A DNA stretch of 64,000 nucleotides from Malassezia japonica (lineage: Eukaryota > Basidiomycota > Malasseziomycetes > Malasseziales > Malasseziaceae): positions 372,001 to 436,000 of the forward strand of contig NC_083372.1 in assembly GCF_029542785.1 (NCBI RefSeq), read 5' to 3'. Made by a program: the position numbers and the translations under genes. Shown one piece after another: positions 1-63,503 of the stretch (within the stretch, counting starts at the first letter, position 1; every line of letters begins with the position of its first letter). Below the pieces are notes generated by a model. It saw nothing but the letters and a program-made list of their open reading frames with translations. It was not told the DNA's origin and did not search any database.

Positions 1-1116
1 TGCGCAACGGTCTCGGGCGAGGGCGTCGTCCCGTCCGAGGACGCCGGCGTTTCCGACGACGAGTCTATCGCCGCCTTCTTCTGCGAGACGCGCGCCGCGA
101 TCGGGCGCTTCTCACCATAGACACGCTCCATGTGGGGGTTCTCGAACAGCACCAAGAAGAGCAGCTGCGAAGCGTGTGCAGCAAGCGACACAAAGAGCAC
201 CGTGTAGCTGCCGGTGAGCAGCGACAGGCCGTAGTAGCCCGCATAGCCAATGCTGTACATCGGATCCGGCGCAACCTCGTACACGCCGTCGAACACGAGG
301 TTTTGCAGGCAGAGGAAGAAGCAGTCGCCCCAGTACCAGGCGTAGTCCTTCACCACACGGTGCGCATCGAGCTTGACCCAGATGTTGAACACGATGAGGA
401 GCAGGCCGGTCGCCCAGCGCACGATAAACAGGAACCAGCCGAGACCACGCGTGCCGTGCATGTTGGACACGCCAAAGAAGAAGTAGGCCGTAAAGTCGTT
501 CAACAGAATCACGTCAACCATCGAGCGGAATAAGAGCCATGTGTTGTACTCAATCGGCATTTCCTGCGTTAGTGGCACCACACACCTCAAACTTGTACTG
601 CTTGCCCATCTTGGTCTGCAGCTGCTGCTGTATCCACGCACTGATGCGCGGCGAGCGCTTCGGGTCCATCCAGCCCTCGCGCTCCACCAGGCGGACGATC
701 CAGCGCGTCGTGCTCTGCTGGACCAGCAGGTATCCCAGTCCGCCGTTGTACGAGATACGCCAAAATGCAAAGTAGAGCATAAAAAAGATCCGTGCGGTCG
801 ACCGCGACAAGGTGAAGAAGAGCACGACCTGGACCGTGAGCGAGACGATCGTCACATAGTCCAGCGGTGTCTTGGGAAGGTCCGGACGGAAGATGGAGCT
901 AAGCATGTCCGGCGTCTCTTGGACATGGAACAGACGGCCGTCAGGCGTGCGGCCCAGCACGGCGCCCTTCTGCGACCCCGCCTTTTCCGGCTCCTGCGCC
1001 GGGGTAGGGGTCGAAGTACTAGTCGTGTTGCCCGTTGTGGTCTCCGAAGCACCTTGGCGCTGACGGAGACCCTCTAGGGAAGATGGGGTGTTCACGGCGG
1101 TACTATCCGCACTCAT
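1..1116 (-). CDS. CHO2: Phosphatidylethanolamine N-methyltransferase (N-terminal part, cut by window edge)
   Basis: Cho2 performs the first methylation of phosphatidylethanolamine to phosphatidylcholine in the ER membrane. Exon 1 (586-1116) carries an Arg/Gln-rich N-terminus and the first membrane segments; exon 2 (1-563) continues with typical Cho2 blocks such as LLNDFTAYFFFGVSN, YEVAPDPMYSIGYAGYYG and LFENPHMERVYG, then runs off the left edge in a Ser/Thr-rich stretch. The intron (564-585, 22 nt) starts GTGTGTGG, ends CTAACGCAG and is required to keep the frame. I use the ATG at 1116, since the frame farther upstream has only a GTG. About half of the usual protein is present. GPM1 lies upstream on the same strand with a 213 bp gap that would hold the promoter. 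Family assignment is confident; the exact start is less so. Confidence 0.93.
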
Positions 1117-1329
1117 TACCGATTCTTCGGAGGTGGTTGAACAACGCCCAGCGAAAAGATCCCCCACACGACGAGCTGGTATTCCCTGCAGCTCGCCACG
1201 TGGCGATAAACCTACGCCGGATCGCTACGGATGTGGGGAATGCCGAAAGCGCCGAATGCCAGCAATGTCTAGGATTCTCAACTACGACTAGCACAGCCCG
1301 TCATCCTTGTACATAATTGCGGCAGACGC

Positions 1330-2146
1330 TTACTGCAGGATCTGCTTGTCGACGACCTTGCCGTCCGAGTCGATCTTGTAGACGATCGGGACACCGGTCG
1401 CGAGCTCCGTGTTGACGATCTGCTCACCGGTCATGTTCTCGAGAGCCATGATCACGGCGCGGAGCGAGTTGCCGTGGGCAGCAACAAGGACCGACTTGCC
1501 CTCCTGGACAGCGGGCTTGATGTGCTTCTCAAAGAAGGGAAGCACACGCTCAGCAGTAAGCTTCAGCGACTCGCCGCCCGGGGGGACGATGTCGTACGAG
1601 CGGCGCCAGGTGTGCACCTGCTCCTCACCGAACTTGGCACGAGCGTCGTCCTTGTTGAGGCCGGTGAGCTCACCGTAGTCGCGCTCGTTCAGGGCCTGGT
1701 CCTGGGTGACCGGGATGTTCTCCTGGCCGATGGCCTTGAGCTGGATACCCAGGGTCTTCTGGGCGCGCTGCAGAGCAGAGGTGAAGGCGAGGCTGCGACG
1801 TGTTAGTACGGTGCTCGCAAGAAGATACGTACTCAAAGTGAGTCTAGAAGCGCGGCAGGCAATGCCGTGTTAGTACATGCTTTCACAGTCACACAATACG
1901 TACGAGACCAGCCTTCTTGAGCTCCTCGGCACCCTTGAGGGCCTCCTGCTCACCCAGCTCGGTCAGGCTAGGGTCCCTCCAGCCGGTGAACTGCACGGTG
2001 AGTAGGCTGTCCAGCCCAGCGGGCGCGCACGTACGAGGTTCAGTTTGTTCCATTCGGACTGGCCGTGACGAGTGAGGACGAGAGTTCTAGCATGGTCAGC
2101 ATTATTCTCCAAAGGGCGTCAAAAATGCCCTTACGTACCCAACCAT
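1330..2146 (-). CDS. GPM1: 2,3-bisphosphoglycerate-dependent phosphoglycerate mutase
   Basis: Glycolytic enzyme interconverting 3- and 2-phosphoglycerate in the cytosol. Proposed exons are 2139-2146, 2035-2086, 1904-1990, 1833-1843 and 1330-1792, giving 206 residues. The catalytic signature [18 protein letters not shown] is split over exons 2 and 3, and the second active-site block is AAHGNSLRA. The length matches the short fission-yeast-type dPGM (about 211 residues) rather than the 247-residue budding-yeast form. The introns (52, 44, 60 and 40 nt) all start GTACGT and are longer than most in the window. Exon 1 is only 8 nt (ATG GTT GG) and exon 4 only 11 nt; the latter supplies T-H-F-D of [18 protein letters not shown], which the family needs for continuity. 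Identity is certain; the 8-nt first exon is the weakest part of the model. Confidence 0.93.
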
Positions 2147-2286
2147 GGTCTATGCGTGCGGGTAGAAAGATCCAGCGAGCTGTTACCCCGGCTTCAGGAG
2201 CGCCGGTACCACGTGGCGAGCCGGTCGGGCCATTACGGAAAGCCCATGTGCTTAGAACGACACGTGATATACTTGCCAAGCGGCGA

Positions 2287-2297
2287 TTATCTGATAG
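2287..2297. promoter_or_regulatory. Back-to-back GATA sites
   Basis: TTATCTGATAG reads AGATAA on the minus strand and TGATAG on the plus strand; both fit HGATAR, and they share one base. It sits about 170 bp upstream of the start of a GATA zinc-finger gene, suggesting autoregulation (inference). Confidence 0.5.
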
Positions 2298-7225: not shown

Positions 7226-7797
7226 TCACACAGCGTACATCTGCGTCCACTGCCGACTAGTCTCGATCGCGCTGCGTCAGTAGATGCACATACCCTTTCT
7301 CGTTGGTCTTGTAGTGCTCCGCCACATCGTTCGCCAGAGGGTCGTCAGGATTCGGCGCTGAAAGCAGCGCCTGGATCGACAGAAGCACCGTGCGGATCTG
7401 CAGCGCAGGCGACCATTTGTCTGGGTCAATAGAATGCACCTACCCTTGAGGATATCGAGGCAGATACGCCCGAGTTTGTCTGCGTCAGCCGCGGCACGTA
7501 CCAATGTTCGGGTGGTAGATCTTGGTGAGGAAGCGCACCTTGGGCGGCGCCATGGGATAGTCCTCGGGAAGGAAAAGCTCGAGCTTGAACGAGCCGCCTG
7601 CGTCAGTCAGGACACGCACCGTCAAACGGACTCTGCGATGGCCCTGAGATCACGACATCAAAATAGCGCAGATTATCCTCATGGGGCGTCGCCTGGATGC
7701 CCGGCGCCGGATCAGCGACGAGGCGCTCTGTCTCCTGCAATGTATGAGCACCGTAAACCTAGCAGCTTACCTTGATGATGCGCTTCGGCAGCGACAT
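7226..7797 (-). CDS. UBC13: Ubiquitin-conjugating enzyme E2 for K63 chains
   Basis: Six exons: 7771-7797, 7620-7734, 7502-7597, 7444-7479, 7294-7420 and 7226-7271, joined to 148 residues. The product matches Ubc13/UBE2N through its whole length: [31 protein letters not shown] with the catalytic Cys in ICLDIL, and [19 protein letters not shown]. Ubc13 works with Mms2-type partners to build K63-linked ubiquitin chains in DNA-damage tolerance. The five introns are 36, 22, 22, 23 and 22 nt; the tiny ones start GTRBGT and end TGAC followed by (G/C)CAG. Removing all five is essential to obtain the family sequence, so this gene is the clearest proof of the mini-intron rule. The start is shared with a 160 bp divergent promoter opposite LAS17. 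Confidence 0.96.
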
Positions 7798-7957: not shown

Positions 7958-9400
7958 ATGCCCTCGTCTTCCTTCACTTCGAGCGAAAAGTCGCTCATAA
8001 AGTCCGTGCTGACCTCGTCGTCGTGCAAGATTATCACGGCGACGCTCGCACGGATCTACGTTACGTACCCAACGCCCGACCGTTGGTACTACACAGGAAT
8101 CGAAGGCGCACTGGCGTTCGTGCGCGATGCCGACGGCAACTTTGGGTTCCGTGTCGTGGACCTCAAGGACAATGGCAAGGTTATTTGGGACCACGAGCTG
8201 TATGACGACTTTTACTTTTACCAGGACAAGCCCTACTTTCACACTTTTGCAGGCGACGTACGTCTCTCTTCTCACCCAGGAATGCATGATCGGATTGTGC
8301 TACGCGGACGAGGCGGGCGCAGCGCAGCTGTACAAGAAACTCAACAACCGCGCAAAATACGGTACGTCGCCTTTCTCACCCAGCGAAATCATCCTCGAGC
8401 TCGTCCGGATTTGGCTTCGCGAAAAAGCTCACCAGCAAGCTCGACTGGTCCAAGAGCTCCAGCTCGGAAGAAAAGCGCGCTGCAAAGACCAGCACACCGA
8501 CACAGCCGGTCCCCGATGAGCCCCAGTGGAACGGGCTCGTGGATCAGCTCGGAAGCATGGGCGTCTCGCAATCCGATATCCAAAACAACGAGGGATTCAT
8601 CCGCGACTTTTTGGGACAGCGTGCCAACGGCGACGCACCGGGGCTCGCGCCGCCAGTGACAGAAACCTTTCCGACGCTGCGCAACCTTCCTCCGCCGGTG
8701 CCGTCCGTGCATGCAACGCCCCCGCCGCCTTCACCGGCGCCCAGTGCTCCGCCGATTCCCCAGCGCAACGTCTCGGACAGCGTGCCACCGCCCCCGGGAC
8801 CACGGCCGCCGCGCAGCGTTCCTGCGCCCCCGCCGCGGTCGGGGGCAGGCGGAGGTGCGCCTCCGCCGGTGCCGCCTCCGCCGAGTACGCGCGCGGCCAA
8901 GGGAGGACCGCCGCCGGTCCCGTCGCGCTCGACGGCTGGACGTGCACCGCCGCCGGTTCCTCCGCCTCCCGTACGGGGCGGCGCGCCGCCGCCGCCTCCG
9001 CCTCCGCCGTCGGTGGGTGGGGGTGCGCCGCCTCCCCGCCCCCGCCGCCTGCGATGGGCGGTGGTGCACCCCGCCCCCGCCCCCGCCTCCTGCAATGGGT
9101 GGGGGTGCGCCCCCACCGCCGCCTGCGCCGCCGAGCGCTGCGCCGGCCTCGCTTCCTGCACCCCAAGAAGGACGCAATGCGCTGCTCGCCAGCATCCAGG
9201 GCAAGAGTGTCAGGGACCTCAAAAAGACCGAGACACACGATACGTCTTCCCCCAAGATCGGCAGCGGCTCGTCGAGTGCCGCGGCGGCTGCGCCGGCAGC
9301 GGGCGGCAACGACTTGGCCAGTGCGCTGGCCAGTGCGTTGAACCAACGCAAAGACAACATGGGTGGCTCGGACGACGAAGAAAGCGACGAGGATTGGTAG
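7958..9400 (+). CDS. LAS17: WASP-family actin nucleation promoter (Las17), with apparent frame slips
   Basis: Activator of the Arp2/3 complex at endocytic actin patches. Exons are 7958-8257, 8280-8361 and 8384-9400; both introns are 22 nt (GTACGT ... CTCACCCAG). Residues 1 to about 128 form a WH1 domain (KIITATLARIYVTYPTPDRW, IEGALAFVRD, HTFAGDECMIGLCYAD). A long polyproline region follows, then a WH2 motif (GRNALLASIQGKSVRDLKK) and an acidic tail ending DDEESDEDW. The reading frame does not run through the polyproline block. It moves frame once near the C-run at 9031-9043 and again near 9067-9087, each equivalent to one missing base; the bridging frame there reads PPPPPAMGGGAP as expected. 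The WH2/acidic end is in the last frame. No plausible intron resolves this, so I suspect indels in C homopolymers of the assembly, although a real lesion cannot be excluded. Corrected length would be about 466. Confidence 0.88.
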
Positions 9401-13106: not shown

Positions 13107-14633
13107 CTATGTAGACGGAGGGTGCTCCGGCGAGGCCTTGGCCGTGCTCGACCCCGGCGGAGCGAGTTGGCAGCACGTTGCGTCGCGGCACTCTTCGCCG
13201 TCGCACGCAAGCAGGCACGCAGGGTCGCCCTGCGACAACTCGTTTTCGACCAGGTTGCCGTCGGCGGTGAGTAGGCGTCCTTGCGCGTCGGTCTTGTTGC
13301 GGACCTCGACGCCGCTGAGGCGCGCGGCCTCCTTCAAACCGCCCGACACAAACTCGGGCTGGATCGTGGAAGAGTGGATGCCCCAGAGGTGCAGAGCGCG
13401 GCGCACCTGGTTCGCAATCTCCATGTAGCGTGCTGTCTGCTCGCTCGAGCAGTCGACGAGGATGTGCAGGCTCGCGACAATCTTGGACTCGTTCAGCTGC
13501 CAGACGTGCAGGTCGTGCAGGCTCAGCACGCCGTCGATGCGGAGCACCGATTCGCGCACGCCGTCGAGCGACACCGAGGTCGGCACGCCCTGGAGCAGGA
13601 TAAACGACGCAGACTTGACCAAGGGAAGCGCCGAGTGGAAGATGATGATCGCAATCACCAATGAGATCGTGGGGTCGACGTAGAAGCGCCACGAGTAGTC
13701 TGTGAACCAGATAAAGAGGCCGGTGAGGATCACACCGACGTTGCCGACCGCGTCACCGAGCACATGCAAAAAGACGCCAGTCATGTTCATGTTCTCGTGC
13801 GAGTGGCCCGACGAGCCCGTTGCCTGGCGGTGGCGGCGCACCGCCGCCGACGTCTCTTCCTCGTGATCGTGGTCGTGATCGTGGTCGTGGTCGTGCGTTT
13901 GTGCCGCGCCATAGTGCGCAGTCTGCTTGCCACGCAGCAAACTCTGCTGCTCGCCGTTCTTGGACGAGGAGTCGTAGCCAAGCGACTGGGCTTTGTTCAT
14001 GATAAAGGCGCGCGCACGCGCGGGGTGGCTGACGAGTTCGTTGATGTTGTTCTGCATCCGCTCCTCGGCCGCCTCCTCGTCGCCGTGGCCATGGTCGTGC
14101 GCGCCGGCGTTCTCCTCGTCGTGTTCGTGCGTATGAGCGTGTTCGTGGCCGTGGCTGTGGCCGGCGTGGGGATGGCCGTGGCCGTGGAAGAGGCAGAGGC
14201 CGATCAGGTTCGACGTGAGGCCGAGCGAGCCGACAATCACAATCAGCTTGGGGTTCGACACCTCGGGGACCTTGACGAAGCGCTCGAGAGCCTCCATAAA
14301 GATGCTAAAGCACAGCGCAAGGAGGAACACGCCGTTGAAGAGCGCGCCGAGGATCTCGGCACGCTGCCAGCCGTACGAGAACAGGGGGTGCTTGTCGTTT
14401 TTGTTCACGAGCTGCGTCAGTAAAAATACGTACACGGACCGCGTACAGCGCGACGATCAGCGACATCACGTCGTTCAGCATGTGGAAACTGTCCGCGACG
14501 AGCGCCAGCGAGCCGACGGCATAGCCTGCGTAAGCACAGAGCACGTACCGCTAATAATCTCTACAAAGAAAAACAACGTATCAATCGCAAGAAGAATCAA
14601 AATGCGCGTCTCATTGCCCAGCGAACCGCCCAT
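13107..14633 (-). CDS. ZRC1: Zinc/cation diffusion facilitator, vacuolar ZRC1/COT1 type
   Basis: Exons 14549-14633, 14434-14525 and 13107-14411; introns 23 and 22 nt. The 493-residue protein has the CDF pattern: ILILLAIDTLFFFVEIISG as TM1, ADSFHMLNDVMSL in TM2 and HVLGDAVGNVGVIL in TM5, supplying the paired His/Asp metal sites. The loop between TM4 and TM5 is long and His-rich (HGHGHPHAGHSHGHEHAHTH and an HD dipeptide run near 13863-13900). A C-terminal CDF cytosolic domain (SLHDLHVWQLNESKIVASLH) follows. The tail contains clustered Cys residues (CLLACDGEECRDATCC), which may bind metal. Role by family: proton-driven Zn2+ (or Co2+) loading of the vacuole. Both introns are needed to recover TM1 and TM2. 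Confidence 0.93.
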
Positions 14634-38788: not shown

Positions 38789-38896
38789 TGACAAGAGTGG
38801 GATTCGAACCCACGCCTCAGGGAGACTGCGATTTGGTTGTCAAGGTATCTCGAAAGAGCCTGAACACAGCGCCTTAGACCACTCGGCCATCTTGCC
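38789..38896 (-). tRNA. tRNA-Leu(CAG) with intron
   Basis: The minus strand folds as a class II tRNA. The acceptor stem pairs GGCAAGA with TCTTGTC (one G-T pair), with discriminator A and no encoded CCA. The A box is TGGCCGAGTGG and the B box GGTTCGAATCC. The anticodon stem CTGTG/CGCAG encloses the loop TTCAGG-T with anticodon CAG. A 27-nt intron (38832-38858) interrupts after position 37 and contains CTTGA, which can pair with the anticodon region. A long variable arm fits leucine. Isotype is supported by anticodon and arm together. Confidence 0.9.
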
Positions 38897-45618: not shown

Positions 45619-46028
45619 ATGCCGGCGACCGTGCTGACCGGCATCGTGACGAAGGCGGGCGTCATGGCCAAGACCGTGACGATGACCGTCGAAAAGATCA
45701 AGATGCACCCGAAACTGCTCAAGGTATGTTGCCCCGGCTAAGACAGACGTACGTGCGCCACAAAAAGTACCTCGTGCACGACCCCGACTCGACGCTCCGC
45801 ATCGGCGAGCGCATCTCGGCACAGGCATGCCGCCCGCTGAGTGCGCGCAAGCGCTTCACGCTGCTCGAGCGTCTCGGATTCAAGGATATGCCGGTGACGC
45901 ACGGCGAGGGCGGCGCAGAGGCCGACCAGCTCCGCCGCCTCAAGGCCGACGCCGCAATGTCGGCTGAGCAGCGCGAGCGCCTGCGCATCGAACAGCGCGT
46001 CAAGAACGAGATGCGTGGCCGCCCGTAG
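45619..46028 (+). CDS. Mitochondrial ribosomal protein uS17m
   Basis: Exons 45619-45723 and 45747-46028, intron 23 nt (GTATGT ... CTAAGACAG), 128 residues. The S17 OB fold is clear: VLTGIVTKAGVMAKTVTMTV and, across the junction, HPKLLKTYVRHKKYLVHDPD, then LRIGERISAQACRPLSARKRF. The C-terminal ~45 residues are a charged helical extension typical of mitochondrial forms. The upstream TAGTGGAGG (45561-45569) is a near match to the shared promoter word. Identity is confident. Confidence 0.93.
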
Positions 46029-48440: not shown

Positions 48441-49572
48441 ATGGACGAGCGCAAACGCAAAGACGCGCCGGACGCGCCGGACGCGTCCAAGAAGAGCGCG
48501 GTGCATGGCCTCGATGCGGGCGAGGAGGCGCCGGTGCCGCTGCGGTACTGCATCTGCCGCCAAGAGTTTGGTAGGTGCACCGGCTCACACAGAGGACGAC
48601 CGCGTGATGATTGCGTGCGACTTTTGCGACGAGTGGTACCACGCCGCGTGCCTCGGCATTGCCGACGAGGCCGTCGAGCTCATCGACCAGTTTGTGTGCC
48701 CCGAGTGCGAAAAGAGTACGTCGTCATGCTCACCAGAAATGGACGCACGCACCTCGTACAAGGCCGCGTGCAAGGCCGACGGGTGCTCGAGCGCCGCGCG
48801 CCTGCCCATGTCGCGCTACTGCTCGGACGCGTGCGGGATGCGCACAGTCAAGGCGCGTGCGGACCGCGTGCGGCCGCCCAATGCCGAGTTTCACACAGAG
48901 ATCGTGCAGCGCGGTGACGCGCGGCGTGGCGTCGTCGTGTGGACGCGTCCTGCGCTCGCCTCGGTCGACGACGCGTCCCTCGACGCCTGGTTCCGCGCCA
49001 TGCAAAAGGGGATGGCCATGCCGAGCGCCGTCCCCGCGGTGCCGCCCGGCACGAGCAGCGGGCAGCACGCGCTGGCGCACGCGACGGCGCTGCCCTCCCG
49101 ACGCGACGCGTCGCTGGAGCGCGAGCTTGCGCGCCTCCGCACGCTCGCAGCCCAAGGGAATACCATGATCGACGTGCTGGCCGTGCGCACCAAGCTCCTG
49201 CAGCTCGCCGAGGACCGCGTGTCGACGCTCCCTCTGGCCGACGACGACGGCAAACGCGACGCTGGGCCCCGCTGCGGCTTTGACGCGCGTCTTGCATGGC
49301 CCGACGAGGCGCTGTGGCAGTGGGCGACGTCGCCGGCGGGCCGCGCGATGCTCCAGGAAGAGATTCCCCTGGACGGCACGCTGGCCGGCGACGCGCACGG
49401 CCCTGCGGTCGTGTGCGGCACGGCGAAGCGCCGCTGCAAGCGGCATGCCGACTGGTCGATCGTGCGTGGCGCCGAGGCCGAAGTCGCGCGTGAGCTGCAG
49501 ACGTCCTATGTATCTGCGCTTGCCGAGCGCGAGCAGCACGTCCGCGCTTTGCTGGAGCATACCCCTACATAG
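48441..49572 (+). CDS. SPP1: COMPASS subunit Spp1/CFP1-like PHD protein
   Basis: Exons 48441-48570, 48593-48715 and 48737-49572; introns 22 and 21 nt; 362 residues. The PHD finger is split by intron 1: LRYCICRQEFE joined to DDRVMIACDFCDEWYHAACL and VCPECEK. A second Cys-rich block (CKADGCSSAARLPMSRYCSD) and the late CGFDARLAWP plus CGTAKRRCKRHADW match the CFP1/Spp1 layout. Spp1 reads H3K4 methylation for the Set1 complex. The 21-nt intron keeps frame and has no stop, so retention would add seven residues after CEK; I prefer splicing because its ends (GTACGT, CTCACCAG) follow the local rule. The 3' end overlaps the next minus-strand gene by 8 bp. Confidence 0.9.
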
Positions 49573-49826: not shown

Positions 49827-50409
49827 TTAGACGCGGCGCACCTTGTCATCGGCGGTCTGCTTGACGTCCTTCACGGCGTCCTGCAGGTCCTGGGTCTTGT
49901 CCTGGAACTTGGCCGTGAGGTCGTGCGCGGCGTCCTGCAGGTTGTGCACCTGGTTCTCCACCGCGTCGCGGCCCTTCTCGGAGAGCTCCGCGAAGCGCTT
50001 CTGCGCCGTGTCCCGGATATCGCCCACGGCGGGGTTCACGTTGTCTTCAACCTCGTCCTTGGCCTTGCCAAAGAGCTCGCCGACGCGCTGCTGGAGCTTG
50101 CCAAACTGCGAGTCGGGCACCGACGACGCAGCCGAGCCGGGGATCAGGCGCACACCCGGCACCGAGACGGGGTTGAAGGAGCGCTCACAGTCAGTGTACC
50201 CGGCACCGAGACCGAAACCGGTACCGAGCCAGACAGGCCACGAGCGACCTGGGTCAGCCAAACAACGTACGCTTCAGGAGGAGCACCGACAGCACGACAC
50301 CGGCGCTGAAACCAATGCCGGTCTTGACAATGGCATTGCTAATGCAGAGGTCGAGCTTCTTGTTGAGCACGTCCTCGCTCGCGAGGTTGCCGCCCGGCTT
50401 GACGCTCAT
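49827..50409 (-). CDS. MIC10: MICOS subunit Mic10 with long C-terminal extension
   Basis: Exons 50271-50409 and 49827-50248, intron 22 nt (GTACGT ... CTGACCCAG), 186 residues. The Mic10 core is complete in the first ~85: NLASEDVLNKKLDLCISNAI, the glycine-zipper membrane hairpin GIGFSAGVVLSVLL and WLGTGFGLGAGYTDCERSFN. Mic10 bends inner membrane at crista junctions. Beyond residue 95 there is a ~90-residue amphipathic, strongly charged helical tail (FGKLQQRVGELFGKAKDEVE, QKRFAELSEKGRDAVENQVH, KFQDKTQDLQDAVKDVKQTA) resembling LEA or apolipoprotein-type repeats. Typical Mic10 is about 75-100 residues, so this is a fusion or extension. No stop or splice signal separates the parts. Confidence 0.9.
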
Positions 50410-50469: not shown

Positions 50470-52266
50470 ATGGCGGCGCCGGCATCATACGAGAGCGTCG
50501 CGTGTCCGAACTGCGAGCGGCGCGTCGCGTTTGGGGTGCTGAACGAGCACCTAGACAAGTGTCTTGCGGGGGGAGAGGCAAGGGACGAAAAAAAAAGCGA
50601 CGCGCGGGGCGAAAAACGGACGGCAAACGACGCGGATCTGCCGCCGCGCACGGACGTTGCCCCCAGCGAGGGACGCGCACGGCCGCCCCGCGACGCGCTC
50701 GAGCTGTCCAAGCCGTTTGCGGAGCGCATGCGGCCGCGGTCGCTGGGCGAGTATATCGGGCAGGCCGAGGTCGTAAAAGGCGCGCTGCAGGCGCTCCTGC
50801 GCCGCGGCCAAGTGCCGTCGATGGTCCTGTGGGGCCCGCCGGGCTCGGGCAAGACGACGCTCGCGCGCCTCGTTACGCGCGAGGCGACCGCCGCACTCAC
50901 GCGCGAAAATCCGAGCGCCGCGCCGTACCGCTTTGTGGAAATGTCGGCGACCGTCGCGACGGTCGTCGAGATGAAAAAGGTCATGGACGAGGCCGTGCAC
51001 CGCCTCCAGCTCACCGGCCAGCGCAGCGTGCTGTTCATCGACGAGATCCAGCGGCTGAATCGGACGCAGCAGGACGTGTTTCTGCCCGCGCTCGAAAAAG
51101 GGTACGCCGTCGTGTAACTCACGCAGCCACCTCACGCTCCTCGCGGCCACCACCGAGAACCCCTCGTTCCGGCTGCAGAGCGCGCTCCTCTCGCGCATGC
51201 GGTGCGTATTTTCACGCTAATCCAGTGTCGTGGTCCTCTCGAAGCTCTCGGTTCCCGATACGATCCTCGTCTTGCGGCAGGCGATGGGCCGCGTCCAAGA
51301 CGACGGCGACGCGATCCCGCCGTGGCTCGACGATGCGCTCCTCGAATGGATCGCACAGATTTCCGACGGCGACGCACGGTACGTCGCGAGGCTCACGCAG
51401 CGCCGCGCTCAATGCCCTCGAACTCGCCTTGGTCACGGGCGACGAAAAAGCGTCGCACGAAGCCAACGTCGCGCAGCTCAAGGCGGCGCTGAAGCGCACC
51501 GCGCTCAAGTACGGTACGTCGCCATGCTCACACCCAGACCGCGCGGGCGATGCACACTATGATACCATTAGCGCGCTGCACGTACGTCGCCCCTCTTACC
51601 CAGAAAAGCATCCGTGGCTCAAATCCCGACGCGGCACTCTACTGGCTCGCACGCATGGTCGCCGCGGGCGACGACCCCCTGTTTATCGCGCGGCGCCTCA
51701 TTGTATGCGCGTCCGAAGACTGCTGCTCGCCCGAGATGCTGAACCTCGCACTGGCCACCTACCGGGCGTGCGAGGTGGTGGGCCTCCCCGAGTGCGGCAT
51801 CAACCTCTCGCACTGCGTCGCGACGCTCGCCGAGCACCCCAAGTCCACGCGCACCTACCGCGCGTGGAAAAAGGCACTGAGCATGGTCGAATCCGAGTTT
51901 AATTATCCGGTGCCGCTGCACATCCGCAACGCGCCGACCTCGCTTATGAAAAATCTCGGCTACGGCGCCGAGTACCGCTACGAGCCCTCATTTGCACACC
52001 CCGTCCACCAAGAGTTCTTTCCCCCAGAGGTGCGCACGACGCGCTTCCTCTCCCCGCCCCCCGACGCGGCCGAGGTGGAGCAGGTGATGGAGCGCGCGGC
52101 TGGCACCGGCGTGTATGCGTGCCAGCGGCAATTTCAGATCGGCGCGCGCGCCGTCGATTTCGACCTCCTGGACGAGTGGGAGCGCAAGCACAACGACGGC
52201 GCGCCGTGGCGCGGCCGCGCGGCGCTGGAGGCCGCCGCGCCCCCCGCCCCGGGCCACCCTTCATAG
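50470..52266 (+). CDS. MGS1: AAA+ ATPase Mgs1/WRNIP1 (RarA family)
   Basis: Six exons: 50470-51101, 51127-51201, 51226-51378, 51401-51513, 51538-51581, 51604-52266; introns 25, 24, 22, 24 and 22 nt; 559 residues. Order: UBZ-type zinc finger CPNCERRVAFGVLNEHLDKC, Walker A GPPGSGKTTLARLV, Walker B VLFIDEIQRLN, sensor segment HLTLLAATTENPSFRLQSAL restored across intron 1, then YDRAGDAHYDTISALHKSIR restored across introns 4 and 5, and PDAALYWLARMVAAGDDP. Mgs1 acts at stalled replication forks and binds ubiquitinated PCNA. The densest intron set in the window, all supported by family continuity. The fourth intron (24 nt) has no in-frame stop. Confidence 0.95.
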
Positions 52267-52337: not shown

Positions 52338-53902
52338 ATGGCGTCCGGCGCGCCCGGCATGATGCCGTATATGGAAAATATCGACGTAAATGATGTGGTG
52401 GACTTTATCAAGTCGCTGAAAGTTGCCGAGCTGAAGGACCATATTCGGCTCATCAACGAGCAGCTGCCCTACGCGCCGAGTGTGCGCCTGTCGGGCAACA
52501 AGTCGGATCTCGCTGCGCGCCTGCTGGAGGTGGTCGAAGCGAATAGTCATACCCACAAACGGCTGCAGGAGTTTGCGATGCTCATCGGCCCGCTGGGCCT
52601 GCAGGCCTACATGCGGGGCCTCGCGAATGTGCGCCAGGCGAGCCAGTACGTCTTTGATCTAACGCAGACTCGGCCACATGTACGGCCGGGTGCCCGAGGC
52701 GCGGCCGTCGCCTGTTGTGCCGAAAATCGGCTCTGCGGCGCCGAGCGCCGAGTCGTCGCCTGCGCCCGCTGTGCCACGATCTCATACCGGGGCGCTGCAC
52801 CAGCTGCGCTTCCGCCCGTCGCCCTTTTACGAGGTGCTGGAGTTTGTCTCGAGCATTGTGCAGATTCCCGAAGCGCCTCCTCCCTCTGGGCGGCGCCAGG
52901 TGAATGTCAACTTTACCCTGTCGCAAAAGCTGCGCGAGCTTTTGCAGGATACCCCCAAACGATTCCAGCTGCGCCTCTTTTGCACGACGTTTGAGCACTA
53001 CATGGCCTCGATCAGCACGCGCCATGCGGCGCCGGTCGAGTTTCCCTACACATGCGAGGCGCGCGTGAACGACAAGCCGCTGGGCGTGAGCCTCAAAGGC
53101 AGCAAAAAGCACCCCGGGCGCGTGTCGCCCCCCGACGTGAACCGCAACAACTCGCTCTATCTGCAGCCCGCACACCTGAACCGGATCGAAGTGGCGTATG
53201 CCAACGCCCCGAACGTATGTACTTTGGCTAACGCAGCGCCATGCCATTGTCGTTGCGCTGTGCCGCGTGACGAGCGCCGACCAGCTCACTGCACAGCTCA
53301 AGCAGCGGCAGTACCGCAGCAAGGAAGAGGTGCTTGCCAAGATGCAGCGCCAGGCGATGGACGAGGACATTGTGACGGGCGCCTCGACGCTCAAACTCAC
53401 CTGCCCGTTGACCTACATGCGCTTGGCGACGCCGTGCCGTGCCGATACCTGCGAGCACATCCAGTGCTTTGACGCGCAGAGCTTCTACTCGATGAACGAG
53501 CAGTCGCCGCAGTGGCTGTGCCCCGTGTGCAACCAGAGCATCCTCTCGGACCAGCTCCGCATGGACGGCTACGTGGAGGACATTCTGCAGCGCGTCCCGA
53601 CCGAGGTCGACACGGTGATGGTCGAGTCGGACGGGACGTGGCACACCACCGACGGCAAGTACACCGACGCCTCGCCCATTCTCCACACATTGCCTCCGGC
53701 GCCGAGCCCAGAGGAGGACGCAGCGCTGGACCCAGAGAGCCTCGCCGAGTTCCTGATGGACGAAGACGACCTCGACGCGCCAGATGCGTCGCAGCCATCA
53801 CACGACCCGGTACTGGGCAGCGACCCAATGACTCCCCCGCCGCTCGCTGCTGAGCAGCCGACGGACGTGATTGACCTCACCCTCGATAGCGACGACGAAT
53901 AG
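52338..53902 (+). CDS. SIZ1: SUMO E3 ligase, Siz/PIAS family
   Basis: Exons 52338-52645, 52668-53214 and 53237-53902; both introns 22 nt (GTACGT or GTATGT ... CTAACGCAG); 506 residues. A SAP-like helix pair sits at about residues 18-66, a PINIT domain at roughly 140-290, and the SP-RING at about 341-385 with CPLTYMRLATPCRADTCEHI and WLCPVCN. The C-terminus ends VIDLTLDSDDE, a SUMO-interacting motif. It attaches SUMO to nuclear substrates. Upstream, CCTCCACTT (52267-52275) is directly followed by CACGTG (52278-52283). SPT20 starts 37 bp after the stop. Confidence 0.94.
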
Positions 53903-53939
53903 CGGCCCTGCCGGAAAGTGGAGGTTCGCTTCCTACGCC

Positions 53940-55358: not shown

Positions 55359-56856
55359 CTATTTCTCTTCCGTGACCTTGACCGCGCGCCGGAGCCAACG
55401 GCGGCGGCGCGTGACGGCCTTGTGCTTCGGGGGAACAATGTCAATGTCGAGCGCATCGACCTCCTCGTCGCTCTCGTCCGCCTCGTCGACCATCGTCGCA
55501 GGCGTGCGGGGGGCGTTGGGGTCCGTGACGTACGCGTACGGCGCAGGGCTCTGCCACGAGTCGTCGGTATAGACAAAGCCCGACTCGTCCACACCCACCG
55601 AGCTCCACGAGCCGCCCCAGTCGATGCGCCAGTCGTCGCCGTCGATCCACTCCCAGCCCGGCTCGAGCGCAAAGGAGAGCTTGTACTTGCCGAGCTCGTG
55701 CCCGTCGTCCTCGCCCGGCGGCGTCCAGCCGTCGCTGCCTTTTGTCCACGGGCGGCGCTCGCTGAGGCGGAGCGCGGTGCCGGACCACCGCTTCTCTTGC
55801 GAGCCCTTGGTGAGGCCAGGGCGGAAGCGCTGGTTTTCGTACAGCTCCATGTCGCGCCAGCCCCGCGACCAGACCTCTTCCGGCAAACGGTCCTCGTCCA
55901 GCAGGTCGGTAAGGCGCTGCGTAAAGCGGCGGTGGCGCAGCACGCGCTTCTGCGCATTTTTGCTGCTGCCCAGGTGCTTCTTTAGGCCAGCGACCGTCGG
56001 CTTCACCCACGGGTGATTCGCCACCAGCGCCAGCTCGCCGACGAGGAAAAGGGTGAGACGGAGGGGAATCAGCGGGCCCACAAAGTACATGGCGACCGTC
56101 GCGAGGAGCGCGCCTTGCAACAGGCGCAACGTCCGCGAAACGTCCGACCAGTTGAGGTACTTGACGATCGGCGCAATGTCGTCGTAACCGTCAATGATAA
56201 GCCGCATCATGTTCTGTATGTCGCGCATGTTGAGGTAGTAGCGCAGCTCGCCCTCATGCACCGGGCTCGGCTCGATCGGCGGGCGCCGCGGCTCCTCGTT
56301 GAGGACAGTCGTGCCTTGCAGCGAGGCACGCAGCGCGTCGCCGGGCGACGCATCCGTCTCGATCTCGGTGAGGGGGAAACGGATAAAGTATGTGTTGCAC
56401 ATGATCACCACGAGCACCGCAGGCGGCACACAGAGCAGCAGGCGAGGATTCAGTGCTGGATTAGCTAGGATACGTACACAACACCGCCCAGATTCCCATC
56501 CACATCAACGTCCAGGGCCAGTCGTCCCACATCAGCGTCGACTCGACATTGTCCTGGAAGTAGAACATCGGGCCGCTCTTTTGCACAAAGCCACGGAAGT
56601 TGACAGAGGTTGTGGTAAGCGACAAGGCAGGCTTCCGCTTCTCGGTCGGCAGCCGCGGCGGCTCGCCGTGCACGGCGACCATCGACCCAATGACCATGGA
56701 CTGCATCGAAGCACTTGCGCGCTGCGACAGCGAAGCAGCACTGCGCACCGACCGAGGGGAAACCGGTGGCGTTGCCTCGCCACTGTCTTCCATCTTGCCG
56801 GGCATGCGCTGCTCCAAGAGCGCCAAATTCTCCGTCGTGATCGGCTCCGGCGCCAT
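55359..56856 (-). CDS. Peroxin of the Pex30/Pex28 type with dysferlin domain
   Basis: Exons 56478-56856 and 55359-56455, intron 22 nt (GTACGT ... CTAATCCAG), 491 residues. The N-terminal part has membrane segments (WPWTLMWMGIWAVLS joined across the intron to LNPRLLLCVPPAVLVVIM; LLQGALLATVAMYFVGPLIP). The C-terminal dysferlin-type domain contains ELYENQRFRPGLTKGSQEKR, the W-rich RRPWTKGSDGWTPPGED and WEWIDGDDWRID. Such proteins sit in ER subdomains and peroxisomal membranes and control peroxisome and lipid-droplet formation. Which paralogue it is (Pex23, 28, 30, 31 or 32) cannot be told. Confidence 0.87.
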
Positions 56857-56912: not shown

Positions 56913-59900
56913 ATGCCGCTCGACGCGGACAGCGCGGTGCACGGCGCGCTGTGCCCACGCATCGCGGTGCTGAGCAGCGGGGATGTTGGAGAGATCGCGC
57001 GGAGGAATGGCGCACAACACATTGCCCAGGTATTGCGCCCGTTTGAGCGCTGCGTCGAGAATAGTACGTCGCCGAGCTCACCCAGTCGCCGTGCGCACTT
57101 CGCAGCTCGCGGCGCGCACACGCGCTTCGTTTCCGGTGCGCTTCGACGCGCTGGACGCGTTCCTTGTGCCTAAGGATTTGTTTGCGAGGGGGGCACTCGA
57201 GCACTTTCTCGACACGGTCCAGGCGCACCTCCGCTCGCACGCCCAGCAGCTCGACGGCGACCAGCCCATCGCCTCGCTCGTCCCTCCGCCGGAGCCGGAG
57301 CGGGCGGCGTGGGAGAAGCAGGTGCGGTCGATTCCGCCGTGGTGCGCGGACATTGCCGCGTACCTCTACCGCTACCGCCCCATTTGCGCGTTTGACGGAT
57401 TCTCGCATCCCACGGCGATGCTGCTCGTCGTCTCGTCCAGCAATCCGGACCCGATGAATGCATTTGCGCAGCTCTACGAAGAGTCGAGCACAAGCTCCGT
57501 GTTCCGGTCGCAGCCGCACGTCGAGGGCGACGTCCTGCGCTCGTACCTCGTTCTGCACGACGCATCCGCGCCAAACGCGGACCTACGCCGCTCCGAGGCG
57601 CTCCTGGACGAGGTGAAAAGGACGTATGGGCTGCAGTGCGCGCTCCTCACGATCAACTCGGCGACCGAGCCGGTGGATAGCGTCGTGGCGCGCGTGCAGG
57701 CCGAGTGGGATACGCCGGACCTGCGCCACGTTCCGCCGTCCAGCACACCGCCGGGCGCGGCGCTCAGCGTGGACGACGTGCAGCGAATCGAGGCGTACGT
57801 CCGCGAGCTCGTGGTCAAGAGCCTCGTGCCGTACCTCGAGCGCACCGTCCAGCAGCTCAACGAGCAGGTGGGCAGCTCACGCCGCGGCCTGACCGGCCGC
57901 CTGCTTGGCGCAGGCCGCAAACTGTTTAGCACGCGAACCACGACGCCGTCTGCGCCCCCGGCCAGCGGATGGGACGCAGAAAGAGGCACCTACCCTGCTA
58001 CGGCGCTCGCGTCGCAGACACGGCGCCTCGCGGACCTCGCGATGCATACCTGCGACTACAAACTCGCGGCAGAGATGTACGACACGGCCCGCCGCGACTA
58101 CGAGCAGGACAGGGCTATGTCGTATGTCGGCGCATCCACCGAGCTCTTGTGCCTTGCACGCCTGCTGAGCGGCAGCAGCGACGGCGTGCCGCTCTTGTTC
58201 TCCTCGGCGTGCGACGCGTACTTGCTCGACGCAGCCGGGCGTCTGTACGCGCTGCGCGCGACATTCCTGTATAGCGACGTGCAGCGCACGCTCGACCACG
58301 GTGCACAGGTCGCTGCAGCGCTGCGGCGTGCTGCAGCGTTTACCGACGAGGTGCTGCGCGGCGTCGTGCTCGAGCTCGCGGCGCTTGCGTACCTGTGCAT
58401 GCCCCACCCCCACGTCCGCAAGAGCGCCGCGACAATGCTCCAGAGCGCCGAGCAGTTTGACGCGTGCGGGCAAAAGGCGTTTGCGCTGCGCTGCTACATG
58501 CTCGCCGCGCCATACTACGAGGACGAGCACTGGCCGGCGATCACCGATCGCGTGCTCACCAAGCTCGCCGCACAGGCGCACAACAGCGGCCAGGGCGGTG
58601 CGGCGCTTGAGTACGCGGTCAAGCTCCTGTACACCACGCCACGCACGGAAAAGGAGGACAAGGCGCATGTCGAGCAGCTCGTCAACGTGTACGAGTTTGC
58701 TAAGACCCAGGACGAAATCACGCTCCCGACGCCGCTCTGGGACGTGGCCGAGTGCACGGTCCAGCCTGAGCACGATCCAAGCGGCGCATGGGCGCACCTC
58801 TATCCGTCGCTCGCGCATGCGCTGCATAAGAAGCACGTCTCTCAAGCAGGCGAGGGCGAGGCGATTACCGTGCGTCTGCAGGCCACCAATCCGCTCCATA
58901 CCCCTGTCACGCTCTCGGACCTGAGGCTGGCATTTGCGGACGCCGCAAAGCCCCTCGATGCCGCACATGTCTCGGTCGACGCCCCGCCGAGCATCGCACT
59001 GGGCCCGCGCGAGTCGCGCTCGATCGACGTCCCGGTGCGCATCGCTGCGTGCGGCACCTTTGGCCTCTGCGCGATCCACTACCGGCTCGAGGGCGTGCCG
59101 GTGCGCCAGGCGATGGAAAAGTACGGCAAGCGCTTGCAAGCAACCAAGGCGCAGCGCATCACGCCGACGTATGCGCCCGATACCACGCTCCAAGTGCACG
59201 TCCGCCAAGACCTGCCGCGCTTGACGACTACCGTCGAAGGGCCACACACGGCGTACGTCGGCGAGTCGATCTCGCTGCGTATTGCCGTGCGCAGCGAGGG
59301 TGCGGCCGTGTCCGAGATCCAGGTGGCTTGCAAGGAGCCGTACGCCAGCTTTGGGCCGGCCGGTGGGCCTGTGGGCGAGACGACGCCGGTGCCAGCCGCC
59401 CTCGCGACGCCGGCGCCGCACCGCGTCCAGCAGGCGCTTGCGCCGCAGGAGCACACCGAAGTGCAGTGCACCGTGCCGCTCCTTGACGCGGGCGAGACGA
59501 CAATCGAGTGGCTCTTTGTATACCAGAATGCACACGGAGAGACGTTTTCGTGCTCGGCACGGCACTCGCTCGACGTGCGCACATTGCTGCGTGCTTCGAC
59601 GTCGGTGCGCACGGTCCAAGGCGCATCACTCGCCTACCTCGTCGCCCTCGACGTCCAGAACGAGGACGAGGAGGCGGTCACCATTGCGGGCGTGTCGATG
59701 CTCAGCACGCAATGGAAAGCCGCACATGCTGCCGAGGCACTCACACTTGCGCCTGGCGAGCGCAGCACAATGGCAACGCGCATCGACCGTGCCTCCACGC
59801 CAACGGACGCGACGCTGCCGCACGCCCTTGGCGCCATCGGGCCGCTTGTTGGCCGCTCCGACTTTGCCGACGTCGAGGCCGCTGCACTCAATCTGCACTG

Positions 59901-60664
59901 CACTGCAGTGCAAGGCGCCGGCGCATCGATGCCGCTCGATGCGTACGTCGCGCAGCGCAGCGCCTTGCGCATGAAATCACTCGAGCACGACTACGAGTTC
60001 CTGCCCGAGCCCGTGCGCCGCCGGGCGTTTCTGCTCCTCGAGTCGCACGAGGCCGACTTGTTGGTACACTGGACGCGCCCGGCGGCCCAGGGCTGCCTCC
60101 TTCTCTACGGGACACACATTGGCCTGCGTGCAGACGTACCGGGTGACGTCGCGCGCCTGGAGTCGCTCGCGCGGCCAACGACGACTACACGCGCCATGTA
60201 CGCTGCGACGACGCAGGAGCAGCAGCGGCGCATTGAGCGTCTGCTCATGTCGCCCCTCGCCGCGATTCCCCCGCCGGTCTCGCTCGAGGTGCATGCGCCG
60301 GTTGCCAAGTACGAGGGAGAAAGGTACGTGCAAATAAAAAAGCTTACCCAGCGTCCAACTCGCGCCAGTCACGCTTCGTTTGCGCAACGAGTCGACGTGG
60401 CCTCTGGCCTATACGCTGCGCCTCCTTCCCGCCAGTATCCGCCCTGCAGCGGCACAGGCAATTGCGCCGTGGATCGGGCGCACGGTACAGCGCGGGACGC
60501 TCGCCCCATGGCACACCGAGACGCTCTCGGCGCACGTCGCGATCACCTCGGCTGGCGCCTACCAGCTTGGCGACTGGGCGTGCGAGGCGGCGGTCAATAA
60601 CGTGGCGATCCAGCCTTTCTTTTCTACCGGGCGCGTCTCTACGGTGCTCGTAGTGCAGGCATAG
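56913..60664 (+). CDS. TRS130: TRAPP II subunit Trs130/TRAPPC10
   Basis: Exons 56913-57063, 57086-60323 and 60352-60664; introns 22 and 28 nt; 1233 residues. Start PLDADSAVHGALCPRIAVLS; exon 2 opens AVRTSQLAARTRASFPVRFD and DLFARGALEHFLDTVQAHLR, matching TRAPPC10 N-termini. Helical repeats follow, then beta-rich Ig-like domains and the C-terminal block LRNESTWPLAYTLRLLPASI. TRAPP II activates Ypt31/32 GTPases at the late Golgi. Length is right for the family. Its last 26 bp overlap, antisense, the end of ASA1. Confidence 0.88.
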
Positions 60665-61779
60665 CATCGTCCTTGGTAAAGGGCACGTCCCAGAGCGATA
60701 TGCGTCCGTCCTTGCTTCCTGCGGCCAGCAGGTGGCGGGGCAGCGCCGGCCCCTCTTCGTCGCTGCTGTCGTCGGCAGGCAGCGCGAGTGTATGTACATT
60801 TCCGCGGCGGATATACGCGACGCCATTCACGCCGTCTTTGTGGTATGCGAGCGTTGCAAGAAGGTCCATGGCTGGCAGCGAAAAGACGCGCACGCCGCCG
60901 TCCCAGCCGCCGACCGCCATGGTCCGTGCGTCGGATCGGACGGCGACACATGCATGGCCCGGGCGCTGCATCGTGGTCGTTTGAGGCTGTGCGTTTTCTG
61001 CGAGGGCGATCTGCACGACGCGCTGGTCGGCGCCGACAGACACGACCGTGCGCTCGTCCGGCGTGAGGCACAGCGCCATGACCGATTCGGTATGCGGCCG
61101 ATGCGACCAGAGGAGTTCAGGGGGGCTTAGGCTGCCGTCGTCGCCGGCCGTCATCGTCCAGGCTTGGACGCTTCCGTCTTCGTAGCCCGCGACGAGGTAC
61201 AGCGTGCTGCCGAGCAGAGTAAGCCGCACGCCCATCACGATCGGCGGGCGTTCCATGCCGCGGCCGAGCACCGCGAGCCGCCCTACCGAGTCTCGCACAC
61301 GCCGGCGCTGGGGCAGCGCATAGATATCGATCCATGCCGACTCGAGGGTATGGGGCACGGCGAGCCAGCCTGTGAGCGAGGCGGCATCGCGCAGGGCCAT
61401 GTCGTAGGCACAGTAGTTGAGCGCGTTCACCTCGACGCTGAGCGCCAACGAAGGCGCATCGAGGGTGCTTCCCCATGCCGACGCCTCGTCTGGCAGTGTC
61501 CACGCTCGTACACAATTATCTCGGCCATGGCTGCGTGAGCAATGCGACGTACGTGACGAGGTAGCCGCCCCACGCGTCTGCGCGAAGCACCGTATCTTTG
61601 TGGGCGTCCCAAAAAAGGCGGGGGCGGTAGTCGGTCATGCTCGTCACCGATACGCGACCCTTTGCATCGCCAGCAACGAGGTACGCTCCTGCGTTGGCAA
61701 ACGCGACCGAGTGCACCGCCGACGGGGCATGATGCCGCACGACCCAGCACGGCGCCGGCGCCGCCCATAAAGGGGCCAT
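60639..61779 (-). CDS. ASA1: ASTRA-associated WD-repeat protein Asa1 (GNB1L-like)
   Basis: Exons 61553-61779 and 60639-61530, intron 22 nt (GTACGT ... CTCACGCAG), 372 residues. WD repeats include VHSVAFANAGAYLVAGDAKG, the Asa1-typical block around the junction LVTHGRDNCVRAWTLP, LYLVAGYEDGSVQAWTM, ALCLTPDERTVVSVGADQRV and LLAAGSKDGRISLWDV. Asa1 belongs to the ASTRA complex, which helps Tra1 and other PIKK proteins mature. The 3' end lies inside the end of TRS130. It diverges from HPM1 with 20 bp. Confidence 0.87.
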
Positions 61780-61799
61780 GATGTGGAGGTTAAGGAACC
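61780..61799. promoter_or_regulatory. 20-bp divergent spacer ASA1 / HPM1
   Basis: The whole gap between the ATGs contains TGTGGAGG, the same core as in the ENV7/SPP1 spacer. Confidence 0.6.
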
Positions 61800-62857
61800 A
61801 TGGCCTTCACGTTTGGGTTTCACGAGAGCGACGGGGCGGACGCCGGTGACGCCGAGCCCGAGCAGGGTATTCCTCTGCAGGCAGCAAAGCAAATCAATGC
61901 GGCACAGCTTGTACGTTGTGAAACTAACGCAGCGCGAGCTCCTTCCTGAAAAGCTGTCGTTCTCGCCGATCGAGGTGCCGTTCGGCTCGTCGTTCCTAAG
62001 GCTTGCGCGCCGCGATCTGTTTGACGTGCGCTTCCAGCTGCTGAACGACGAAGAGAGTGCGCAAGGTGTTGCAGATACGCATACCGACCTCATCCCCGGC
62101 GTGTACGAAGGCGGGCTCAAGACATGGGAGTGCTCGCTCGACTTGGTCGCCACGCTCGCCGAGCGCCTCCCGTCGTACCATGCCGAGGATGCTAGCTGGC
62201 CCTCGGGCCGGCACATTGTCGAGCTCGGCTGTGGGACGGCAGTGCCAACGTGTTTCCTGTTCCGCACGCTCTTTTCTACGCAGCCCTCGGACCGCCCGAC
62301 GGTGCTGGATCTGTGCGACTATAACGAGGAGGTGCTTTCTCTGGTACGTGTATATCCTAACGCAGGTCGTCTATCCCAATCTTCTCCTGAACTGGTTCTT
62401 CTCTGCGGGCGGCCCCGGTCACGGCCGGTCGGTCGAGGCGGGCGACTTGGAGATCGACCACGACCTCTTGACGCAGTTTGAGCAAGAGCTGCAAGCGCGC
62501 CAAATTCAACTGCGCTTCTTCTCCGGCGCATGGGACTCGCTTGACCTCTCGCTCCCCGGCCAGTCTCGCGCCGAGATTGTGCTGAGCAGTGAGACGGTCT
62601 ACGCGATCCCCAGTCTCTCCCCCTTGTGCCGTGTGTTGCAAGACATTTGCTGGCCGACCTCCTCCAATACCTCTAATGCCAGCGTCGCCGCAAAGACCAC
62701 GCTGTGTCTCATCGCTGCCAAGGTGCTCTATTTTGGAGTCGGCGGCGGCGTGCGTGCTTTTTGCGATGCGGTCGCAGCCAGGCACGGGTGGACGGCGGCC
62801 GTGCGAGAGAACAGGTCGGGCGTAGGCCGTGTGGTGTTGAGCACCGGTTTTCCGTAG
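61800..62857 (+). CDS. HPM1: Protein-histidine N-methyltransferase, Hpm1/METTL18
   Basis: Exons 61800-61910, 61933-62343 and 62366-62857; both introns 22 nt (GTACGT ... CTAACGCAG); 337 residues. The seven-beta-strand methyltransferase core has LIPGVYEGGLKTWECSLDLV, the SAM motif HIVELGCGTAVPTCFL, DYNEEVLSL joined across the intron to VVYPNLLLNW, and ILSSETVYAIPSL-type post-motif (here IVLSSETVYAIPSL). Hpm1 methylates a histidine of ribosomal protein uL3 in yeast. The family match is good throughout. N-terminal FTFGF is also typical. Confidence 0.92.
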
Positions 62858-62878
62858 CGCAGTGCCTGCACTGCCTCA

Positions 62879-63503
62879 TTAATCCGAGATACTTCCTACG
62901 TCGCTCATTTCGGCGTCGTCATTTTCTTCGTCGGCGTCCGCATCGGCTGCGGCGCCCGCCGTTTTGCTCGCGTACTGCGCGACGCATTGACGCACTTTGC
63001 GGTCGTATGCATCTGGGTCGTTCATCAGCAATGCGGCCGCCTCGCCGTTCAGTGGGTCCGTAGGGTTGGGGTATCGGAGGAGTTGAGGCAAAAACGATTC
63101 AAAGATGTTGATACAGTCAAACATGGGCGACCATGTCTGGTTGATGACGTCCAGGCACACTGAACCGGACACCTCGTCAATGTTCGGATGAAAGATCTTG
63201 TTCACGAATCCAATCGAGGGCGACTTGTACGGGTATTGTTCCGGGAGCTCGACATGGATACGCCACACGCCGTCTTCATACGGAGCTGCGTCAGTCTCTA
63301 CGCCACACATACTTTCCGAGGGTCCTTTGAACTGCACATGGAAGTCCTGCATATTGTCATCCACCAAGGTAATCTCATAGTCGGACATGAGGCTGCGTGA
63401 GCACGTCGACATACAGTTTCATCACGTCCATCTCGATACGGCGCTTGGGACTCGTGTGGTGGGCATTTGTCCCTGCGCGTGGTGTACCACCGGTACGCAT
63501 CAT
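62879..63503 (-). CDS. UBC8: Ubiquitin-conjugating enzyme E2, Ubc8/UBE2H
   Basis: Exons 63415-63503 and 62879-63392, intron 22 nt (GTATGT ... CTCACGCAG), about 200 residues. [13 protein letters not shown] joined to [20 protein letters not shown], then [40 protein letters not shown] with the catalytic Cys in VCLDV, and an acidic tail ([15 protein letters not shown]) as in UBE2H. Ubc8 serves the GID/CTLH ligase, which degrades gluconeogenic enzymes. Two consecutive ATGs (63503, 63500) may start translation; the first ~18 residues are not conserved, so an unseen upstream intron is possible. Confidence 0.92.

Follow-up and report, generated by a model that had tools for sequence, protein, structure and literature searches.

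A class of 22-nucleotide introns with the branch site fused to the acceptor in Malassezia japonica

How closely the ends of an intron can be spaced for a normal spliceosome has so far been a question of odd protists and relict nuclei. Extracts of the papers cited here give introns of 15–16 nucleotides (nt) for heterotrich ciliates, 16–17 nt for Mikrocytos and 18–21 nt for a chlorarachniophyte nucleomorph, with a highly reduced spliceosome in Mikrocytos (PMC10245619); a table entry for Stentor marks Slu7 and Prp18 as not found (PMC9505925). Here we analyse a 64,000-nt stretch of the fungus Malassezia japonica (NC_083372.1, positions 372,001–436,000; the ‘window’), from a genome of 8,433,779 bp in 9 contigs, in which spliceosomal-type introns, mostly of exactly 22 nt, carry a branch site fused to the acceptor. 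The presence of this class is confirmed as real and well supported, and we consider it likely (probability about 0.72), judging from sequence, that its members are U2-type introns that have shrunk to a hard lower limit set by the geometry of this cell’s spliceosome.

Like the introns of Mikrocytos mackini, the nucleomorph and the heterotrichs in the extract cited, those of M. japonica include a class of tightly restricted length, at the short end of what is known. A preliminary description of the window had placed them near the lower limit for any spliceosome, which is roughly right, although the shorter introns just listed have been reported. Unlike Stentor, M. japonica has both Slu7 and Prp18, and longer introns coexist with the tiny ones, so that its introns are not nearly all confined to a few lengths: 56 of 104 high-scoring predictions (defined below) are not 22 nt long, and the 104 range from 21 to 92 nt. 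Introns of 21–29 nt in Nyctotherus and 20–33 nt in Paramecium have also been described (PMC2633312); those of Nyctotherus tend to carry stops or to shift the frame, and the extract reports that no branch motif was found in them, whereas the M. japonica motif is strong and its position fixed. The gap between branch motif and AG is 2 nt in Yarrowia lipolytica and 4 nt in Giardia and Trichomonas (PMC2483917), and the Yarrowia gap recurs here as CTVAC-NC-AG, in the tiny class alone (57 of 62 introns of ≤24 nt versus 5 of 24 introns of 30–60 nt). Yarrowia introns are longer (204 and 269 nt in a published table, which we take as median and mean); unlike there, branch–acceptor fusion in M. japonica accompanies minimum length. 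The class is best placed among ordinary spliceosomal introns that have come to rest on a floor set by geometry.

Within the genus, extracts describe Malassezia genes as containing very short introns (PMC7426719), as they do here. For M. restricta, in whose annotation the minimum intron length was set to 20 and 15 (PMC6473144), the median intron measures 30 nt and the mean is 37 nt (PMC9241646); two annotations of M. globosa give means of 76 and 79 nt (PMC4634964). No description of a 22-nt mode, a fixed geometry of 16 + 5 nt or a floor was found for Malassezia in the open-licence literature searched, mostly through titles and abstract openings.

A 22-nt length class in conserved genes

Pairing donors GT[AG][CT]G[TC] with acceptors [CT]T[AGC]AC.?[CT]AG on both strands of the window (G+C content 57–69% in 2-kb steps), at lengths of 12–80 nt, gave 20 pairs at 22 nt and 0–1 at each other length. 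One of the 20 (360–381, donor GTGCGC) was treated as false; the remaining 19, with 3 from gene models (at 48571, 51582 and 56477), bring the window total to 22 segments of exactly 22 nt. That is the number the preliminary description gave, although two are weak: 15403–15424 has a 34-nt alternative and 39663–39642 lies outside modelled genes. Its one 21-nt, two 24-nt, two 25-nt and one 28-nt introns were also recovered, but we count four 23-nt introns, not five, and one of 27 nt that it did not list; longer introns are present too.

Elsewhere in the genome the picture is the same. Twenty stretches totalling 200 kb, searched with a slightly stricter pattern, held 30 pairs at 22 nt, 5 at 23, 5 at 25 and 0–2 at other lengths from 10 to 80 nt. 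With the branch motif dropped, so that GTACGT was paired with any YAG, 22 nt still stood out, with 17 pairs in the window (≤4 at any other length) and 40 in the 200-kb sample (≤8). The strict pattern GTACGTN{2,32}CTVACNCAG, which allows 17–47 nt, matched 1965 places genome-wide (1014 + 951), against 13 (7 + 6) for the same pattern reversed. Among the 100 matches listed, which all come from the + strand of contig 1 within its first 788 kb, 87 were of 22 nt, three of 23, two of 24, two of 25, three of 26, and one each of 27, 28 and 34; none was of 17–21 nt, lengths the pattern allowed. If the share among these matches holds, the genome contains some 1,700 exact 22-mers of the strict form.

A dynamic-programming gene finder that had donor and branch preferences but no preferred length called 205 introns in the window plus sample (264 kb), with a mode of 22 nt (51 of 205); at a score of ≥10, our high-scoring set, 48 of 104 were 22 nt long. 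Many low-scoring long introns in that set are probably noise.

Junctions were then scored without reference to splice signals. For each of 15 introns in five genes (14 tiny, one of 36 nt), 874 to 1525 variants were made by removing ≤45 or 60 nt from starts within 9–12 nt of the proposed one, and each translation was scored against a relative’s protein. The proposed length was best for 13 of the 14 tiny introns (the exception is taken up below) and for the 36-nt intron, so that removal restores a conserved protein. In the UBC13/UBE2N gene (7226–7797, − strand; gene model and scan), lengths of 36, 22, 22, 23 and 22 nt were each best for the introns 7770–7735, 7619–7598, 7501–7480, 7443–7421 and 7293–7272; with all five removed, the protein matched chain 1j7d_B, which we take to be the human UBE2N chain, at 117 of 145 residues with 0 gaps, and the score of 634 fell to 31 with none removed. 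The RarA/MGS1-like AAA ATPase gene (introns spanning 51102–51603, + strand; gene model and scan) gave 25, 24, 22, 24 and 22 nt for 51102–51126, 51202–51225, 51379–51400, 51514–51537 and 51582–51603, the second 24 beating 27 by only 2 points. The lengths of 22 and 27 nt were best for the UBE2H/UBC8-like introns 63414–63393 and 63312–63286 (− strand; gene model and scan), as was 22 nt for the STK16-like kinase intron 47680–47701 (− strand; pattern, gene model and scan) and, against the M. psittaci protein, for intron 2 of a SIZ/PIAS SUMO-ligase gene (53215–53236, + strand; pattern, Pfam and scan).

The best-matching stretch of a Pfam domain encloses 11 of the tiny introns, from seven genes: four in UQ_con, two in Cation_efflux and one each in WH1, Ribosomal_S17, PINIT (SIZ/PIAS intron 2), Pex24p and TAFII55_N; among 10 window proteins scanned, 2 were without a match. 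These results, with GT...AG ends and a branch motif complementary to U2, fit U2-type introns, and we infer that they are spliced as read. U12-type introns, judged on the donor and branch motifs generally known for that class, do not fit a GTACGT donor with a CTVAC branch.

The SIZ/PIAS gene also allowed the same site to be followed in relatives. The closest named relative of its protein is that of M. psittaci (67% over full length), followed by other Malassezia (7999 candidates scored); some database relatives are, judged by their letters, unspliced reading frames from metagenomes. Five proteins that looked unspliced at the intron-2 site, or were comparable, were chosen from the listed matches, and all codon choices were searched for the length best restoring exon 3, with only GT...AG-compatible lengths scored (2 to 7 per protein). 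The gene’s own 22 nt was recovered as positive control (score 128, next 25), and relatives gave 22 nt (P0009; 111, next 39), 23 nt (P0011; 107, next 32) and 21 nt (P0002; 106, next 44), whence an inferred 21–23 nt. P0012 was too short (best 23 nt, score 7 over 8 residues; about 35 nt fits by eye), and P0005, P0010 and P0021 run uninterrupted through the site, being spliced or intronless.

P0002 matches by eye, where both have letters, the deposited M. obtusa protein P0008. Conserved residues beside the intron-2 site are missing from the latter, as is part of the zf-MIZ region, and zf-MIZ is not among the Pfam domains listed for it; its letters suggest that these gaps are perhaps an annotation artefact of an imposed minimum intron length. 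The class thus matters for annotation too, as the gene caller may have rejected such small introns.

Geometry of donor, branch site and acceptor

The tiny introns share a stereotyped layout: GTACGT, a 7-nt spacer, CTVAC, one base and CAG. In 22-mers, the presumed branch A, assigned by consensus alone, lies 16 nt downstream of the first G and 5 nt before the 3′ end, in agreement with the distances of about 16 and 5 nt put forward in the preliminary description, whose picture of a small, mostly 22-nt spliceosomal-type class with fused branch and acceptor our data support. Among the 48 high-scoring 22-mers the branch reads CTAAC in 16, CTCAC in 10, CTGAC in 10, CTAAT in 6, CTTAC in 5 and CTCAT in 1.

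The 16-nt distance also emerged when the acceptor was left out of the count. From GT[AG][CT]GT to CT[AGC]AC, at 8–60 nt in the 264 kb, 61 pairs stood at 16 nt and 7 at 17, with a thin tail beyond; below 16 nt, single pairs were seen at 15 and at 12 nt and three at 9, while the distances of 8, 10, 11, 13 and 14 nt were empty. The stricter pair GTACGT to CT[AG]AC gave 29 at 16 nt and 3 at 17, and its counts at 8–15 nt were all zero. Reversed controls held 61 and 6 pairs in total, with ≤4 and ≤2 at any one distance.

In the high-scoring introns of ≤24 nt (n = 62), the distance from 5′ splice site to branch was 16 nt in 52, 17 in 9 and 18 in 1, and that from branch to 3′ splice site was 5 nt in 57; two 21-mers kept the former at 16 and had the latter reduced to 4. 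Introns of 30–60 nt (n = 24) showed a 5-nt branch-to-3′ distance in 5 and 6–12 nt in 15, with the same GTACGT donor in 17 of 24, against 36 of 48 for the 22-mers. A Fisher test on the fused arrangement (59 of 62 versus 5 of 24) is partly forced, because introns of ≤24 nt above a 16-nt floor leave little room after the branch, and is taken to mean that fusion is not the rule in longer introns, and nothing more. There is thus a common donor consensus with one apparent machinery, a floor on the distance from 5′ splice site to branch, and a preferred minimum on the distance from branch to 3′ splice site.

Retention had been expected always to shift the reading frame; this holds for introns of 22, 23, 25 and 28 nt, but not for those of 21, 24 and 27 nt. 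If retained, 11 of the 48 high-scoring 22-mers would hold an in-frame stop. Lengths of 23–34 nt divide 13/10/6 by remainder 2/1/0 on division by three, a shortage of multiples of three too small to build on, and selection keeping 22 nt as a non-multiple of three has little support from so few.

Splicing machinery and the origin of the length class

The genome holds a U2 small nuclear RNA (snRNA; Rfam, 123 bits) with canonical GUAGUA and a U6 snRNA (81 bits) with canonical ACAGAGA. Profile matches over the cut-off were found for Slu7 (E = 2.3e-91), Prp18 (in two pieces), SNRNP27 and Methyltransf_10, the METTL16 family (PF05971, which is not specific to METTL16). The best U2AF-large match (E = 3.9e-66, 224 bits) falls short of the curated cut-off of 310 bits, perhaps through exon-by-exon reading of the gene; a second profile piece follows 60 nt downstream, and we call it U2AF-large-like. 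With Slu7 and Prp18 both present, their loss is rejected as the cause of the fused acceptor.

By the usual pairing rules, a C at position +4 of the donor fits neither a canonical U1 nor the canonical U6 box. The idea that the donor lacks A at +4 owing to loss of METTL16 or SNRNP27K, drawn from PMC10581693, has no support, as both Pfam families were matched; that paper does not contain the terms basidiomyc, Malassezia, Ustilag or GTACGT.

For the intron class as a whole, the account we favour is that deletion pressure in a compact genome would shorten introns until a 16-nt floor between 5′ splice site and branch is reached, where they would pile up at 22 nt. The floor would be a hard one, probably set by the room needed for the 5′-splice-site contact (U1, then U6) beside the U2 branch helix, and longer introns would be removed by the same machinery, with freer branch-to-AG spacing. 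Because lengths pile at the lower edge with an upward tail, 22 nt looks like a minimum rather than an optimum. The same one-sidedness, together with a donor common to introns of 30–60 nt and their looser branch-to-AG spacing, leads us away from the earlier proposal that the spliceosome’s geometry is adapted to a single fixed size. A rival reading makes 22 nt an optimum: an adapted spliceosome would recognize the intron as one composite signal, and departures from that length would be selected against in either direction. The very sharp peak, the fixing of both distances and the absence of a U1 match by Rfam RF00003 or either of two loose patterns would suit such size selection; introns of 23–28 nt (12 of the 100 matches listed), longer introns with the same donor and a distribution as one-sided as a floor predicts make it unlikely.

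Recent multiplication of one 22-nt sequence, as in introner-like elements, would explain the stereotyped ends and also a slight excess of similar spacers among the 48 high-scoring 22-mers of the 264 kb: 19 of 1128 pairs share at least 6 of 7 bases, where 200 column shuffles averaged 7.5 and never exceeded 18, an excess of about 2.5-fold over the mean. However, 46 of the 48 spacers are distinct, repeats of exon and intron ends reach 3 nt in 0–1 of 48 and 4 nt in 0, and at one common site the length differs between relatives (22, 23 and 21 nt); with neither near-identical copies nor target-site duplications, and only the slight spacer excess remaining, we regard copying as quite improbable. That the segments are not introns at all, being skipped in translation, excised from DNA or introduced by assembly error, is hardly credible given the GT...CTVACNCAG signals beside U2 and U6 genes, the excess of 1965 matches over 13, and the similar segment that other sequences have at the common site.

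Several results weigh against introns resting on a geometric floor, or against the evidence for it. For SIZ/PIAS intron 1 (52646–52667, + strand; pattern and gene model), the scan against the M. psittaci protein preferred a 10-nt removal (score 1813) to the proposed 22 nt (1787). The exception arises perhaps because that protein, P0001, holds intron-like residues: its extra QYVFEDLPR resembles QYVFDLTQ, the translated window intron, and may, from the letters, be an intron retained in the deposited protein or a coding stretch in M. psittaci. Five scans, two in UBC13 and three in other genes, were topped by a shifted start with length unchanged. The gene-finder preferences were fixed after the class had been seen, so its predicted introns are not an independent set, and a looser pattern in the 200-kb sample returned a single 15-nt pair and two of 21 nt. 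In the M. obtusa-like P0002, the 21-nt intron places the branch A, by its letters, 15 nt from the donor, so that 16 nt is a floor in the M. japonica genome and not across the genus. Finally, U1 snRNA gave no RF00003 match at E ≤ 10 among the 41 candidates scored, out of 132 from a first look. The pattern TACCTN{12,30}ATCANGAAG occurred at 5 places (reversed control 2), with no U1 among the five by Rfam at E ≤ 10 and the best-looking place reading by eye as a coding gene start, and ATACNTACN{14,44}ATCANGAA occurred at 1 place, gene-like by eye; these searches were loose first looks and so are no proof of absence.

A bolder extension, possible but doubtful, is that a fully equipped fungal spliceosome reads the 22-nt intron as a composite signal at the closest donor–branch spacing (16 nt), with the U1 step perhaps strongly diverged or bypassed, and that the genome has been driven onto this limit well over a thousand times. 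If true, Malassezia would be a natural measurement of the minimum distance from 5′ splice site to branch. As it stands, a genome with Slu7, Prp18 and a U2AF-large-like gene offers very many natural replicates at one limit, with longer introns as internal controls.

Further introns and features of the window

Among the remaining introns, several are placed by pattern, gene model and Pfam together. Two of 22 nt on the + strand lie within the WH1 domain (8258–8279) and shortly downstream of the WH1 match (8362–8383); one of 22 nt is in the Cation_efflux gene (14412–14433, − strand), which has another of 23 nt from gene model and Pfam (14526–14548, −); one of 23 nt is in the TAFII55_N (TAF7-like) gene (18467–18489, +); and one of 22 nt is in a WD40-repeat gene (61531–61552, −). 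Gene model and Pfam also place a 23-nt intron in the Ribosomal_S17 gene (45724–45746, +) and a 22-nt intron with branch CTAAT in the Pex24p-family gene (56456–56477, −).

Pattern and gene model agree on a 22-nt intron at 564–585 (−), in a gene for a predicted protein of 228 amino acids that has no Pfam match and so no homology support; on one in a gene MIC10-like by eye (50249–50270, −); and on two in a gene without a Pfam match (61911–61932 and 62344–62365, +). A gene that is PHD-finger-like by eye has a 22-nt intron from the gene model (48571–48592, +) and one of 21 nt, from pattern and gene model, with distances of 16 nt from 5′ splice site to branch and 4 nt from branch to 3′ splice site (48716–48736, +). 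The gene for a 1233-amino-acid protein has a 22-nt intron by pattern and gene model (57064–57085, +) and a 28-nt intron by gene model (60324–60351, +). The gene model also yields a weak 25-nt candidate (46476–46500, +; score 7.6). At 15403–15424 (+) the pattern marks a 22-nt candidate for which the gene finder preferred the 34-nt 15403–15436 with a common donor, and the full signature at 39642–39663 (−), where no gene of score ≥15 was modelled, perhaps belongs to an untranslated region or a small gene.

A gene named by eye as phosphoglycerate mutase-like carries longer introns with GTACGT donors on the − strand, at 2138–2087 (52 nt), 2034–1991 (44 nt), 1903–1844 (60 nt) and 1832–1793 (40 nt). 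The window also contains a tRNA gene at 38789–38896 (−; Rfam, 46.6 bits), missed by ARAGORN with bacterial settings, whose length of 108 nt suggests a tRNA intron.

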